From Tetragenococcus osmophilus (lineage in GTDB: Bacteria; Bacillota; Bacilli; Lactobacillales; Enterococcaceae), in NCBI RefSeq assembly GCF_003795125.1, contig NZ_CP027783.1:248001-312000 (forward strand): a DNA stretch of 64,000 nucleotides, read 5' to 3'. This document shows positions 48,335 to 64,000 of the stretch, piece after piece (positions within the stretch are counted from its first letter, which is position 1; every line of letters starts with the position of its first letter). Under the pieces are notes generated by a model, which saw only the letters and a list, made by a program, of their open reading frames with translations, searched no databases and was not told the origin of the DNA. The translations under genes were made by a program, and so were the position numbers.

Positions 48335-48463
48335 ATGCCACACTCCCAGTAATTAATATTATTAATAACTTTCACTGATTATTATGTGTCAAAATTCCCA
48401 AATTAGCAACCTAGGAGGATATTTCTTATGGAACGGAGAGAAAGCTTAGAAAACCATTTCGAC

Positions 48464-48659
48464 CTATGTCCTGAATTTATTTTCAGGACATAGATCGTTG
48501 GTAGCTATGTACTGAAATCAGTTTCAGGACATAGATCAGGCCTTTTTCAGGCTAAATTCAAGCTTTTAGAACATAGATTCGCTAAAGTTATGACCTGAAT
48601 TCGATTTCAGGACATAACTCTTGAGGACCTATGTTCTGAGTTTATTTTCAGGACATAGG
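48464..48659. repeat. Hairpin array C (TATGTCCTG / CAGGACATA family)
   Basis: Hairpins at 48464-48493, 48505-48534, 48588-48617 and 48628-48659, plus a lone right arm TTTTAGAACATAG near 48565-48576. The best unit is CTATGTCCTGAA, six bases, TTCAGGACATAG. The flanks on both sides resemble array D. The surrounding space 48335-49117 has no other gene I trust; a 21-codon ORF with AGGAGG starts at 48428 and runs into the first hairpin. Confidence 0.85.
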
Positions 48660-48904
48660 TCTAATAACTTTGGCATAAATTAAATGAATTTCTCCCCCTT
48701 CTTGCAGTAAGTTTATGAGCTTTAAAGTGCTTTTTACAATTATAATATGATATATAAAATCGGTAAAAAACTTATTCCAATTTTGTACCCAAAAAAAGAG
48801 AATAACTGCATACAATTTTATTTTAAGGAAAAGACAATTTTTATTCCTGGATATTTATATAAATATTTAGACTTACTAAAATTGACATATCTACTGTTTC
48901 CTTC

Positions 48905-49117: not shown

Positions 49118-50644
49118 TCAATAGGTTAATGAACCACGATTTACTTTTCTGTATTCAATTTCTCCTGCTTCAAAAAAGGTGGTCAATAGATCCATAAACT
49201 TATTCTCCGATGCTAAACGGCTACAGACAAATAGATCGATTGCTGCATAATTTTCTTCTGGCCAAGTGTGAACAGTAAAGTGTGATTCCGCAAGAACTAC
49301 AACGCCACTTACTCCTAAAGGTTTAAACTGATGAAAATCAGAACTGACTTTTGTCAATTGGCACTGTTCAACAATATTTAGCATTATTCTTTCTACAGTA
49401 GAAACGGATCCTATATTATTATTAAAACAATTTTTTAGTTCTACTAAATAATGACTTCCCAACACTTTTTCCTCAGTAGCTTCTAGATTATTGCGAGATA
49501 AATGTAAGAAAGTAGTATTTTCACAATTGGAGCAACCTATTTCTTTTAGCTCTTCAATCGTTTTGATCGTAAGAGAAGGACCAACCTTATGAGTTTCTCC
49601 ACAATTTTTACACTTATACACAGAATTTCTTGGGTTTAATTCTCCTGTGTATATTTGCTGTTTATATGAAGTACAGCTCGATATAATTGGATAGGTCGTT
49701 TGTAATGTCAAAAGTTCAAGCATATTGCTTCGTCCTCCCAAAATCGAGGCTCCTTCATAATGATTAAAATCATGTGATATTTCGTTTATAATAAGGTTTT
49801 GATCACATATCAATTTTTGAACTGCTAATTGTGTTTGAGGTTCTTTTTCTCCAAAAGATAAATAAATTCGACTAGCGCCTAAACGGCTACTAGAAATGGC
49901 TCTTGATAGAAAAAGTTTCAATCCTGTAATAGTATACGGAGGGTCGACAAATACATAATCATATTGGTGTTTAAAATATTCTTGACTTCCATATCTAAAA
50001 TCCAACTTTTGAATATCTATACCTATCTCTAAATTTTCTGCAGAGTCCTCAATACATGTAATTATATTTTCCGACATCTCATATACCATTAAATGAGAAG
50101 AACATTTCCCTTTAAGGCTAATTTTTTTAATAAGTAAACCAACTGCCAAAGACGTTAAATCATCATCTCCTAAAAATAGGATTTGATTATTGACTAATTG
50201 ATGCTCATCAAGAAGTAAGAAAGCTCGATCAATGCTTGTTTGCAGTGTGGCAAAAGCTTGATCGAATTTCACGTCTACTTTGGGACGATTCACTATTTTT
50301 AATGAAAGTTCATCAATCATTTCTTTTTTTAACCATTCTCGTTCACTATTTGAGTCAATTATTTTTAAATAATGATTTTTATTAATGGATGAAAAGCCAA
50401 GAGTGTTTTCTACGTAAAGACTACCTTTTGTTGTTAGGAAAACACCATTCGCCATTTTAACGATTCCTAACTTGGCCAATTCTTTTCTAATTGCTGAAAT
50501 CACTGGAATTGGTAGATTTGTTTTACTTGATAACGTCTTTGTAGATAATTGACCTCGCAAATATAATTCAATAAGGATTAAATCAACCACTTCTTCAGAT
50601 TCTTTCAAATGAGTACGTTCTTTGATTATTTTTGATATTTTCAT
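49118..50644 (-). CDS. BpsA-SpeD fusion: branched-chain polyamine synthase + AdoMet decarboxylase
   Basis: The 508-residue protein joins two polyamine enzymes. Residues about 1-75 form a winged helix; about 80-330 match N4-bis(aminopropyl)spermidine synthase (BpsA, DUF43 family), with the FLGDDDLTSLA motif at 158-168 and VFVDPPYTITGLKLF at 231-245. A zinc ribbon (CKNCG at 345-349, CSNC at 371-374) is the linker. Residues about 392-508 are a class 1B S-adenosylmethionine decarboxylase: Ser454 (AESHF, the self-cleavage site giving pyruvoyl), His459 and Cys474 keep the 5- and 20-residue spacing of bacterial SpeD. One chain could thus make decarboxylated AdoMet and attach its aminopropyl groups to a polyamine. 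A 12-residue upstream ORF overlaps its start. Confidence 0.85.
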   Translation of the reverse strand: MKISKIIKERTHLKESEEVVDLILIELYLRGQLSTKTLSSKTNLPIPVISAIRKELAKLGIVKMANGVFLTTKGSLYVENTLGFSSINKNHYLKIIDSNSEREWLKKEMIDELSLKIVNRPKVDVKFDQAFATLQTSIDRAFLLLDEHQLVNNQILFLGDDDLTSLAVGLLIKKISLKGKCSSHLMVYEMSENIITCIEDSAENLEIGIDIQKLDFRYGSQEYFKHQYDYVFVDPPYTITGLKLFLSRAISSSRLGASRIYLSFGEKEPQTQLAVQKLICDQNLIINEISHDFNHYEGASILGGRSNMLELLTLQTTYPIISSCTSYKQQIYTGELNPRNSVYKCKNCGETHKVGPSLTIKTIEELKEIGCSNCENTTFLHLSRNNLEATEEKVLGSHYLVELKNCFNNNIGSVSTVERIMLNIVEQCQLTKVSSDFHQFKPLGVSGVVVLAESHFTVHTWPEENYAAIDLFVCSRLASENKFMDLLTTFFEAGEIEYRKVNRGSLTY

Positions 50645-50679
50645 TTTTCCGGCTCAACAATATCTATGCAGTGAGCCAT
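50641..50679 (-). CDS. 12-residue upstream ORF (MAHCIDIVEPEK) coupled to bpsA-speD
   Basis: The ORF has a strong ribosome site (AGAGG) and its TGA overlaps the ATG of the fusion gene (ATGA). The fusion gene itself has only a weak site. A 12-bp stem (50674-50718) would cover the uORF start, and a competing 6-bp hairpin (50651-50677) would cover the region just before the main start. Confidence 0.6.
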   Translation of the reverse strand: MAHCIDIVEPEK

Positions 50680-50763
50680 TTCATCCTCTCTATCATTATT
50701 ATTGATGATGAAATGACTACCTAAATTAATTTAATCTACCATGTCTATACTTCAGTAGATAAT

Positions 50764-50788
50764 AAAAAAAGAACCAAGAAGGTTCTTA
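50764..50788 (-). terminator. Terminator upstream of bpsA-speD
   Basis: On the minus strand AAGAACC, TTCTT, GGTTCTT is followed by TTTTTTA. It either closes the decayed gene at 50842-50945 or acts in the leader of bpsA-speD. Confidence 0.7.
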
Positions 50789-50841
50789 GTTCTCCGGAAT
50801 TATCCAACTATCACTATTACAAATAAGTAAGTGCATTAGAA

Positions 50842-50945
50842 TTAAATTGAGAATGTAAGAATATCTATAGACATGCCAAATAAAGCAAGATTATTGGCTA
50901 TTAAATTAATCTAGATAGATATTGCTACAATTGCCAAAAAGACAG
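50842..50945 (-). pseudogene. Remnant of a membrane protein gene
   Basis: The minus strand reads VFLAIVAISI, a stop, then INLIANNLALFGMSIDILTF before the end. It looks like the hydrophobic C-terminus of a lost membrane protein, followed by a terminator. No family assigned. The space from here to the tRNA-Thr holds this, a GNAT-like fragment and hairpin array D. Confidence 0.35.
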
Positions 50946-51039
50946 CTCCCATTCATTATTTCACTTACTAAGCTCAAAGTAATTCATTAGTAGGATAGCA
51001 TCTTATTTCTAACATTGTCAAATGTCATTTTTCCTTTAA

Positions 51040-51159: not shown

Positions 51160-51239
51160 TAGCTTATTCTAAATAATTTTCCTTATACAAGGAAGTTAAT
51201 TCATAATAACTGGAGAAAAACCTAAAAAACCGTTTCGAC

Positions 51240-51435
51240 CTATGTCCTGAATCTTTTTTCAGGGCATAGGTCGTTAATAGTTATGTCTTGAAACCGAACT
51301 CAGTACATAACCCAGGCCCATTTTAGGCTAAACTCAAGTTTTTAGAACATAAGTTTACTAAAGCTATGTTCTAAAGTTAAACTCAGGACATAAGTCTTCT
51401 CATCCTATGTCCTGAGTTTATTTTCAGAACATAGG
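51240..51435. repeat. Hairpin array D (TATGTCCTG / CAGGACATA family)
   Basis: Units at 51240-51269, 51281-51310, 51364-51392 and 51404-51435, plus a lone right arm TTTTAGAACATAAG near 51340-51353. Order and spacing are the same as in array C, and the flanks TTTCGACCTATGTCC and ATAGGTCTAATAACTTT are shared with it. Confidence 0.85.
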
Positions 51436-51591
51436 TCTAATAACTTTAGCTCTTTTTACAACAACTTCATAAGTATGAAAGTATTTTTTATAATTACAGT
51501 ATGGATTTTACAAGATTAAAAAACTCGTCTCAAAATCGTTATTATAAGAAAATTATCAAAATGACTGAGCTTTTGGCACATATTCGACACA

Positions 51592-62478: not shown

Positions 62479-64000
62479 GAATAAAAAAACCGTCTTTTGG
62501 GCAGACACGAAGTTATTTTTCAACCTCACTTTCGTTCGGTTCGCCCTCATCATCTCTAACAAAAACAAGTTTTTATTAGAGATAATTCGGGGTCATTATT
62601 AATTGATTTAGTCCTTTGGCGAATTGGCCTAAAGGTGCACTTTTCGCTTTTCCTTCGCCCATTTGCCCTTTAAACGCACCTTCATGAGCTTGAAAGTTAG
62701 TTTTTTTCTGTACCCAACGTTTCATAGCTTGCCAACGCTTTTCTTGAGCGACCACGTCGTCCGGAAGGGCTTCGTATTGATTCAACCATCCTTCAAATTC
62801 TTGATTCCGTAAACTATCAATGACACGAATCATGGCTTGGGCACCGGTTTTTGTCCATAAACGACCTTGGCGCTTCATGCGATAGGTGATTTTTCGATGG
62901 GTACTTTCGATCGTGCCAATACATGCTTGGGGATCTCTGATTTCTCGTGCTTTCAATGATTTTAAATAAGGCCAATTTCTTTGAAGATAGTGATGCAGTA
63001 AACGTAAATGTTCTGAAGCCTCGGCTTCCTTTTCTTCAATCAAGCTTTCCGAGGTATCTAAAACAAGCTGGACCTCTTGCCAATCATAATGTTCAATCGC
63101 TCGTATCATACGATGTTGGAGTTGGGGAACAAAAGGCATTCGTTCTTTGATTTTACGATGGACATGGTATCGATCACGGAAGTGTTCATGACGCAAACAA
63201 CCTAAAGCCAGTTCATCAAACACGGCTTTTTCATAGCCTGAACCGCCGTCACTATTGGAAATGACAACGGTATGACTTAAATCATAATAGGCTTGAAGAT
63301 AGGCCATCATTTCTTTGTATGCTTTTTGCCGATTCAGATGACTCACAAAGTGCGGGGCGATCATTTCCGAGCGATTCCCTACTTTCTGGCTGCCTTCACA
63401 TACTTGAAAACGATGGACTTCAAGAGATTGTTTCTTCTGTCCGCCAATCTTTGCGCCGTCTCCTTCCAAATATAAATAAGGCACTTTTTTCTTGATGATC
63501 ACGCCGTCATAACGACTTTCATGCGTGCTTCGTGTCTGGACCAGTTCACCGGTTTTAACCACCAACTGTTGCACATTTTGATGACTCATCTGCCAAGAAG
63601 TTAAACAGTCAATCGCTTGAGAAACATGACGATAAACCATGATACTGCCTAATTGAGAGACGTTTCGCAGGACTAGCGAACTATAACGAAGCCCTTTTCG
63701 AATCCCTAGAAATTCATCTAAGGGGTAACGAATGTCATTGGCTTGATTTTTCATTCGTCGACGAACATAGGTCACGGTCCCAAACAAAAAGGTGATGGTT
63801 CTCTCGCTTTTACGATCGACGCGAAAGCCTTCTTTCTTACATTGCGCACAAATTTCTTCATCAAGCGTTTGAAACGCTAGTTGGGTAATTGTCGTGATCA
63901 ATTGCGTAAAAAAGATCATCATAGCTCTTTCTCTTGCTAAAAAATTCGTTTCCTTCTTCATTACTTCCACTAAATCTGTTACAATAGATTCCATAAGAAA
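62479..64000 (-). mobile_element. ISLre2-type insertion sequence (right part beyond window)
   Basis: The element contains an intact transposase gene and, behind it, a segment with GAGGTTGAA (62479-62487) and TTCAACCTC (62519-62527) as an inverted pair that may mark or lie near its end. The other end lies beyond the window, so boundaries are uncertain. Confidence 0.65.
62576..63994 (-). CDS. ISLre2 family transposase
   Basis: The 472-residue protein matches the ISLre2/UPF0236 group: FGTVTYVRRRMKNQANDIRYPLDE at residue 71, YLYLEGDGAKIGGQKK, VVISNSDGGSGYEKAVFDEL, FRDRYHVHRKIKERM and GTIESTHRKITYRMKRQGR, with the acidic catalytic residues of a DDE enzyme. The frame is intact. It mobilises its own element by cut-and-paste. 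The start near 63994 is close to the window edge; a start slightly further upstream cannot be excluded. Confidence 0.92.
   Translation of the reverse strand: MESIVTDLVEVMKKETNFLARERAMMIFFTQLITTITQLAFQTLDEEICAQCKKEGFRVDRKSERTITFLFGTVTYVRRRMKNQANDIRYPLDEFLGIRKGLRYSSLVLRNVSQLGSIMVYRHVSQAIDCLTSWQMSHQNVQQLVVKTGELVQTRSTHESRYDGVIIKKKVPYLYLEGDGAKIGGQKKQSLEVHRFQVCEGSQKVGNRSEMIAPHFVSHLNRQKAYKEMMAYLQAYYDLSHTVVISNSDGGSGYEKAVFDELALGCLRHEHFRDRYHVHRKIKERMPFVPQLQHRMIRAIEHYDWQEVQLVLDTSESLIEEKEAEASEHLRLLHHYLQRNWPYLKSLKAREIRDPQACIGTIESTHRKITYRMKRQGRLWTKTGAQAMIRVIDSLRNQEFEGWLNQYEALPDDVVAQEKRWQAMKRWVQKKTNFQAHEGAFKGQMGEGKAKSAPLGQFAKGLNQLIMTPNYL

Follow-up and report, generated by a model that had tools for sequence, protein, structure and literature searches.

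What does an enzyme of branched-polyamine chemistry do in a lactic acid bacterium, and what switches it on? The question is raised by bpsA-speD, a gene at 49118..50644 of a 64,000-nt stretch of Tetragenococcus osmophilus DNA (NZ_CP027783.1, positions 248,001 to 312,000; "the window" hereafter). The gene, its domains and its leader all lie on the minus strand. It is a single open reading frame (ORF) of 508 residues with no internal stop, and its product combines a BpsA/DUF43-type aminopropyltransferase with a complete S-adenosylmethionine (AdoMet) decarboxylase, SpeD, in one chain. We propose, with moderate confidence, that this is a bifunctional enzyme making and using decarboxylated AdoMet (dcAdoMet), placed behind a leader-peptide attenuator and induced by stalled ribosomes. 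If stall-induced, the enzyme may be part of the response of a lactic acid bacterium to blocked ribosomes, and not of its ordinary polyamine housekeeping.

Both domains had been proposed in a sequence-only reading of the stretch, and profile searches bore this out. In the N-terminal half, Pfam BpsA_C (PF01861) matched a Rossmann domain at residues 117–300 (49745..50296) with an expectation value (E) of 3.8e-36 and 125 bits, against a cut-off of 27. Further along the chain, AdoMet_dc (PF02675) matched residues 398–504 (E 1e-31), and the NCBIfam equivalog TIGR03330 (SpeD) gave the C-terminal part 116.7 bits (cut-off 75.65). Taken from profile and structure alignments together, the class 1b SpeD domain spans residues 393–504 (49133..49468). 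The nearest solved structures by sequence (PDB) were the BpsA-type entries 2qm3 and 5xnc (5xnc E 1.8e-20) and Thermotoga maritima SpeD 1tlu; residues 393–493 align gap-free on positions 2–102 of the latter, which places Ser454, His459 and Cys474 on chain positions 63, 68 and 83. The motifs lie where that reading had put them, i.e. GDDDL at 159–163 (GDDD, 159–162, 50159-50170) and FVDPPYT at 232–238 (DPPY, 234–237, 49934-49945), both inside BpsA_C, followed by a CxxC…CxxC ribbon at residues 345–374 (49523..49612), with Cys pairs at 345/348 and 371/374, which probably binds zinc. The first 100 residues (50345..50644) appear winged-helix-like, with helices in the AlphaFold2 model and a weak HTH_24 match at 23–63 (E 0.04, below cut-off).

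The AlphaFold2 model, built from 41 sequences, had a mean predicted local distance difference test score of 90.3 and a predicted template-modelling (TM) score of 0.72, the sole run below 50 in the former being the linker at 385–390. A Foldseek search with the model ranked BpsA entries first (E about 1e-20), but with a root-mean-square deviation near 18 and TM-scores of 0.4–0.6, perhaps from a differing orientation of the parts; T. maritima SpeD reached TM-scores of 0.85–0.89 by target length. When the fused form was sought in other Enterococcaceae, it was found in Enterococcus larvae and Enterococcus sp. BWR-S5, whose BpsA parts are 55 and 54% identical to that of the window protein. As the fusion occurs in further genomes, it is no assembly accident, and the joining of the two enzymes in one chain is confirmed. 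Since both domains share that chain, the earlier suggestion that dcAdoMet is made and used in one molecule is a reasonable one: the SpeD domain would cleave itself at Ser454 and convert AdoMet to dcAdoMet, which the BpsA-type domain of the chain would then use to aminopropylate an amine. No description of a BpsA-SpeD fusion was found in the open-licence literature.

Motif conservation was counted over 29 aligned fused rows (25 distinct sequences; the interrupted locus L040 was left out). GDDD, DPPY, Tyr296, the four ribbon Cys and the SpeD Ser and His were kept in 29/29, and the ribbon Cys were likewise invariant in 6/6 rows of alignment A1. The SpeD Cys is missing in four of the 29 (three Xenorhabdus and an Enterobacteriaceae metagenome-assembled genome (MAG)) and retained in the window protein. 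These losses, together with the precedent of animal spermine synthase (PMC12803844), would fit a SpeD half that is structural only, like the AdoMetDC-derived dimerisation domain of that enzyme. The full triad in the window protein, L038, L039 and L122 speaks against such a role, as does the finding that the only match of the fused protein in its own genome is itself, and we regard it as very improbable. Compared with class 1b SpeD of T. maritima and Bacillus subtilis, the domain has the same full length, Ser-His-Cys triad and, to T. maritima, gap-free alignment over 393–493; it differs in being the C-terminal domain of a larger chain. Decarboxylase and transferase also share a chain in bacterial AdoMetDC-SpeE-type fusions and in animal spermine synthase (PMC12803844), but in the SpeE-type fusions the AdoMetDC part is N-terminal, whereas here a BpsA-type transferase carries it at the C-terminus.

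The second half of the question, what switches the gene on, leads to its leader. A plasmid DNA search gave the first sign of a conserved element: one record, Enterococcus gilvus pCR1A, matched a 134-base segment at 81%, and this segment precedes the bpsA-speD start and lies outside the gene. In the window, this leader RNA covers 50818..50986 and scored 152 bits with our model R1, the window copy being among R1's six source sequences. The element precedes all five of the Enterococcaceae/Vagococcus bpsA-speD genes found (window, E. larvae, BWR-S5, V. allomyrinae, G873). A promoter-like TTGACA-18-TATCCT, seen by consensus scan only, lies at 50992..51021, and a terminator scan placed a terminator-like hairpin with a T run between element and gene (50764..50795); hairpins with T runs of differing sequence stand at the same place in five aligned relatives, as judged by eye. 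Within the element lies a short leader ORF (50911..50937), which starts with TTG, encodes MAIVAISI and is preceded by a Shine-Dalgarno-like GGGAG at 50946-50950. Closer to the start codon, a second segment (50645..50727) is conserved as well (five sequences, 80% mean identity), with a weakly backed GGCTC/GAGCC hairpin at 50651-50677 (one compensatory pair, covariation term +0.48). A 12-codon mini-ORF ending in the main start codon (50679-50641) was considered as an AdoMetDC-type upstream ORF and rejected, as it is not kept in the relatives; the hairpin is kept instead.

The leader ORF recurs well beyond bpsA-speD. A second model, R2, found the element in 78 of 395 Lactobacillales genomes (86 places, E<=0.01); downstream genes and peptides were examined at 45 of the 86 (L161, L163 and L165–L167, already seen with R1, were left out). 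At all 45, the leader ORF held the same model position, with starts of TTG, GTG or ATG among the leaders; 43 had a Shine-Dalgarno-like stretch, and 41 peptides began with MSV. The Val codon of this MSV was GTA in 27, GTC in six, GTT in five and GTG in three, a spread that would be expected of a translated ORF. Listed by the gene behind them, the peptides are MSVAGI, MSVVGI, MSVTGI, MSVLGI and similar mostly before MutS2-like genes, MSVTMSI, MSVTMSN and MSVIISN before Mef-like genes, and MSSVVVSI, MSSVTISI, MSSVTVSI and MSIVTVSI before the other bpsA-speD copies. The end of the leader ORF falls in the 5′ arm of a conserved stem, and a ribosome located there would thus block the stem. In the six-sequence alignment, one long stem was found in which 8 of 50 pairs had changed on both sides. 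In the core structure of 23 sequences (22 distinct), 96.1% of cells were paired, and 30 cells showed double changes compared with 10.7 in shuffles (0/500 as high).

Two other explanations of the element were dropped. Both an Fst-like toxin RNA and a metabolite riboswitch fit poorly with a short conserved leader ORF and with the kinds of gene downstream, and for the riboswitch the lack of an Rfam match adds to this: no match at E<=1 overlapped the element in the window, L040 or L135, and in L038 its 3′ end was overlapped by a single sRNA match, which stayed below threshold (30.5 bits against a gathering value of 50, E 0.91). A description of the attenuator was not found in the open-licence literature either.

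Which genes stand behind the element elsewhere? Of 105 genomes of the family, 10 had strong R1 matches, at 11 places in all (120–176 bits). Four of these places precede bpsA-speD; at the other seven the gene is a Mef-like MFS transporter, in one case in a same-genus genome without bpsA-speD. The transporters scanned reached 258–270 bits with NCBIfam MefA, whose cut-off is 675, and are therefore termed Mef-like only; the copies at L140 and L155 are fragmented. Weaker R1 matches precede a MutS2-type protein (434–520 bits on partial ORFs, cut-off 400). This gene dominates the R2 matches: in the 45 examined, the downstream gene was MutS2-like in 39, Mef-like in two, bpsA-speD in two, an RsgA-type GTPase with an RNHCP domain in one (L211:1522-2865) and GNAT-like in one, the last behind a weak R2 match (E 2.9e-4) and named by eye. 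Where fetched whole (L208, L209, L210, L212), the MutS2-like paralogue has 630–652 residues and follows an MSVxGI-type leader; in the two scanned with Pfam, L208 and L209, MutS_V was found but Smr was not.

MutS2 of B. subtilis splits ribosomes that have stalled, and strains lacking mutS2 show hypersensitivity to chloramphenicol, tetracycline and erythromycin (PMC10897456). The hflXr gene of Listeria is turned on via a stalled leader ORF (PMC6310831). Attenuators of this kind, hflXr/rli80 (PMC6310831) and mef/mel (PMC4335068), share with the present element a short leader ORF, RNA structure and a terminator before the gene, which in their case answers ribosome inhibitors. The present element differs in its peptide, which is mostly MSVxGI; no Rfam family exceeds its threshold, and it precedes MutS2-like, Mef-like, RsgA-like and bpsA-speD genes.

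As the element is shared with MutS2-like, Mef-like and RsgA-like genes, the set reads as a response to blocked translation, and because the same element precedes these genes, bpsA-speD itself is probably ribosome-stall-inducible. The attenuator would hold the gene off, the leader ORF overlapping one arm of the conserved hairpin upstream of the terminator; stalling in the leader would let transcription through; and the inducer would be stalled ribosomes, e.g. those arrested by ribosome-targeting compounds. Most likely, then, Enterococcaceae recruited the fusion to a ribosome-stress regulon, as an aminopropyltransferase that is inducible and supplies its own donor. The attenuator would define a conserved Lactobacillales regulon around a MutS2 paralogue, a family recently tied to stalled-ribosome rescue. 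If the leader works as it looks, aminopropyl transfer would be a ribosome-stress response, and polyamine chemistry would be tied to translation inhibitors in a new way.

Several observations weigh against stall induction, or at least against its generality. When the leader ORF was barred from pairing in folding, the terminator still formed, and the antitermination step was not reproduced. The RLR motif named in PMC6310831 is not in the leader peptides, and no arrest motif was recognised in them. The terminator scan (4 vs. 2.1 in shuffles) is weak taken alone, and two of the five measures of the core structure are weak or unsupportive: pairs with a double change numbered 5 vs. 3.3 (18/500 shuffles as high), a weak excess, and further pair types 13 vs. 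13.9 (498/500), which is unsupportive. The structure was moreover derived from the alignment on which it was tested, R1 was built from six sequences (five bpsA-speD copies and one other), and the E-values of both models are rough. In the window genome, R2 matched a single place, so that the copy before bpsA-speD is the sole one, and no short MutS2 exceeded the cut-off; a long MutS2 (976 bits) is present, along with a MutS-type match that fell short of the cut-off. Finally, the element was not found in 79 other bpsA loci (a few with little upstream DNA), and the stress link may be local to the Enterococcaceae/Vagococcus lineage.

Feedback offers another view of the same switch, in which the leader peptide would sense polyamines by arrest and the gene would answer to polyamine level instead of antibiotic stress. 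Eukaryotic AdoMetDC has a polyamine-sensing short ORF, and bpsA-speD is a polyamine-type gene, which would suit such a role. The element stands, however, mainly before MutS2-like genes (the 39 of 45 above), which have no obvious polyamine link, and we give feedback of this kind little credence.

If ribosome stress is the signal, what would the enzyme do about it? BpsA makes branched, up to quaternary, amines. One proposal is that the Enterococcaceae BpsA-SpeD is a ribosome-stress effector that would counter ribosome-targeting compounds by transferring aminopropyl groups to the compound itself, to rRNA or to a polyamine bound to the ribosome, within a hitherto undescribed MSVxGI-type attenuator regulon that also comprises the MutS2 paralogue, Mef-like pumps and an RsgA-like GTPase; in this full form it is tentative, and we consider it unlikely, if worth serious thought. 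A related alternative makes protection the function itself, with either the ribosome or a compound that targets it being aminopropylated; the acceptor could be an amine-bearing inhibitor, or the ribbon could bind RNA. It draws on the attenuator shared with MutS2-like, Mef-like and RsgA-like genes, on a donor supply built into the enzyme itself, in a genome where the searches made found no route of polyamine synthesis, and on the genes of polyketide-synthase (PKS) and nonribosomal-peptide-synthetase (NRPS) type near several Xenorhabdus copies. Those PKS genes are convergent, though, and absent from some copies, nothing points to an acceptor, and no such enzyme is described in the available portions of the literature found; protection in this sense seems decidedly improbable to us.

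The principal alternative to a stall-induced enzyme is that bpsA-speD encodes a housekeeping branched-chain polyamine synthase as in thermophiles, converting imported spermidine to N4-aminopropylspermidine with SpeD for supply, and that the leader is incidental or growth-sensing. The BpsA_C family match and the BpsA entries among the closest solved structures fit this reading, as do residues assigned roles in Thermococcus kodakarensis BpsA, where Asp159/Asp160 hold dcAdoMet, Asp225, Glu259, Tyr290 and Tyr316 activate spermidine, and acidic residues of the flexible C-terminus carry the aminopropyl group (PMC12979288, a 2026 review). In a HMMER alignment counted by hand, Asp159/Asp160 fall on the Asp residues of GDDD, and Asp225, Glu259 and Tyr290 on D234, E268 and Y296, Tyr316 lying beyond the aligned part. 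The counterparts of the Asp pair, Asp225 and Tyr290 are thus among the residues kept in every fused row. Position 268 is acidic in the Enterococcaceae rows only, the other fused rows having Lys, Ser or Pro.

Compared more broadly with BpsA of T. kodakarensis (5xnc) and Thermus thermophilus (6j27), the fusion shares the family, a Rossmann domain with GDDD, the Asp of the DPP motif and a conserved Tyr, but has DPPYT in place of DPPET (T. kodakarensis) or DPVEG (T. thermophilus), carries the CxxC/CxxC ribbon instead of the acidic C-terminal carrier cluster, and is joined to SpeD. This cluster has no evident counterpart in the fusion: the sequence alignment to BpsA stops at residue 298, and what follows is the ribbon and then the linker. 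The acceptor and regiochemistry can therefore not be deduced from thermophile BpsA. The lack of an evident cluster also tells against the housekeeping role. The linker stretch 376–397 has three acidic residues in the window protein and one to four in relatives, and E388, E391 and E392 could conceivably act as aminopropyl carriers.

The metabolic setting bears on the same alternative. In this genome, which is 99.99% complete, no Spermine_synth match (SpeE) was found. No OKR-type ornithine/arginine/lysine decarboxylase exceeded its cut-off, the best match being 22.6 bits vs. 27 in an aminotransferase-like ORF; the single PF02784 match adjoins a dapF-like start and was read as LysA; and no agmatine deiminase was found. 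No putrescine route was thus present among those searched, pyruvoyl arginine decarboxylase and ureohydrolases not having been included. As to import, no PotA exceeded its cut-off (PotB/C/D and other amine importers were not searched), the best ATPase being UgpC-type. Because no synthesis route was found among those searched, the acceptor amine is probably imported, or else something other than a classical polyamine. The lack of SpeE and of PotA over the cut-off sits poorly with a housekeeping synthase, and so does the distribution within the genus, where none of the eight other genomes has the gene, unlike a housekeeping gene. Overall, we consider the housekeeping alternative unlikely, yet the one deserving most attention among those that dispense with ribosome stress. 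Of the ABC ATPases matched by the PotA model, L123 and L127 were profile-scanned, L127 being ProV-type by NCBIfam, and L124–L126 and L128 were read by eye; several of the transporters at L124–L128 were read as glycine-betaine-type and suggest a salt-tolerant member of the Enterococcaceae.

How did such a gene come to be here? The earlier reading called the fusion unexpected in a mesophilic coccus, and it is indeed rare, with only 4 of 105 Enterococcaceae genomes carrying the gene. The accompanying claim that BpsA is mainly thermophilic was not supported. A scan of 84,980 species gave 215 relatives of the BpsA part, and the best 80, which were kept for analysis, came mostly from genera known as mesophilic, with a few thermophiles. 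The fusion thus runs counter to the statement that bpsA is not found in mesophiles (PMC12175538). Among the best 80 loci, 24 encode SpeD within the same ORF and 12 in a separate adjoining ORF, and for 43 the fetched DNA showed no SpeD; in V. allomyrinae (L040), the SpeD part is divided over two ORFs, an interrupted copy. In a sample of 398 Bacilli genomes, close BpsA matches were mostly stand-alone ORFs of about 390 residues. Other hosts of the fused form are Xenorhabdus, an Enterobacteriaceae MAG, Roseburia, Eubacteriaceae and Clostridia assemblies, a Dysgonamonadaceae MAG and Bacteroides/Phocaeicola; the form seen in Bacteroides also occurs on a faecal contig labelled as phage. Donor synthesis and transfer are hence joined in one BpsA-type chain across three phyla (Bacillota, Bacteroidota and Pseudomonadota).

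In a BpsA tree of the window, L032, L033 and 79 of the 80 loci (overlap filtering removed L086), 27 fused rows form one side of one branch with a support of 87, which is not decisive. The neighbour of the fused group (support 91) is Halanaerobium salsuginis, where bpsA and speD adjoin each other in the same frame and are separated by a stop. The SpeD tree, with no stand-alone SpeD row, needs two changes for the fused state and neither shows nor excludes a single origin. The simplest reading of the sequences would be one fusion event followed by transfer between phyla.

The relatives yielded several further observations. At L046, L047, L053 and L074, Tyr or Arg replaces the catalytic Cys of SpeD with the BpsA motifs intact, a possible decay of the decarboxylase half. 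A GNAT-type acetyltransferase directly follows bpsA(-speD) at L073:9649-10110, L079:1724-2173 and L004:995-1453 (L073 and L004 were profile-scanned), and a similar ORF lies nearby on the opposite strand at L032:3992-4255; these neighbours are possible polyamine acetyltransferases. PKS-type genes are convergent with the fusion in the Xenorhabdus loci L041, L042, L055, L083 and L089 (a PKS gene in L041 and an NRPS-type gene in L042 were profile-scanned), and four of these five loci also have a desaturase gene and one resembling saccharopine dehydrogenase. The PKS-like neighbour cluster (25 loci, named by its longest member) was considered as an operon partner, but given the convergent orientation in these five loci and its absence from L043, no claim is made. 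The names of the hosts of L038, L040, L041–L056 and L082 (larvae, allomyrinae, Xenorhabdus) suggest that several fused copies come from organisms with insect hosts, a conjecture from the names.

Around the gene in the window, PADLOC returned only mad2 (E 0.0066 over 87 residues), and a defence-system reading was not adopted. Two direct 234-base copies of a complex palindromic repeat (48441-48674 and 51217-51450; 79% identical, 2.8 kb apart) flank bpsA-speD, possibly representing an interspersed element. Near the end of the window, a transposase gene at 62576-63994, presumably ISLre2/UPF0236-like, has 93% DNA identity to a stretch of a Methanobacterium petrolearium plasmid.

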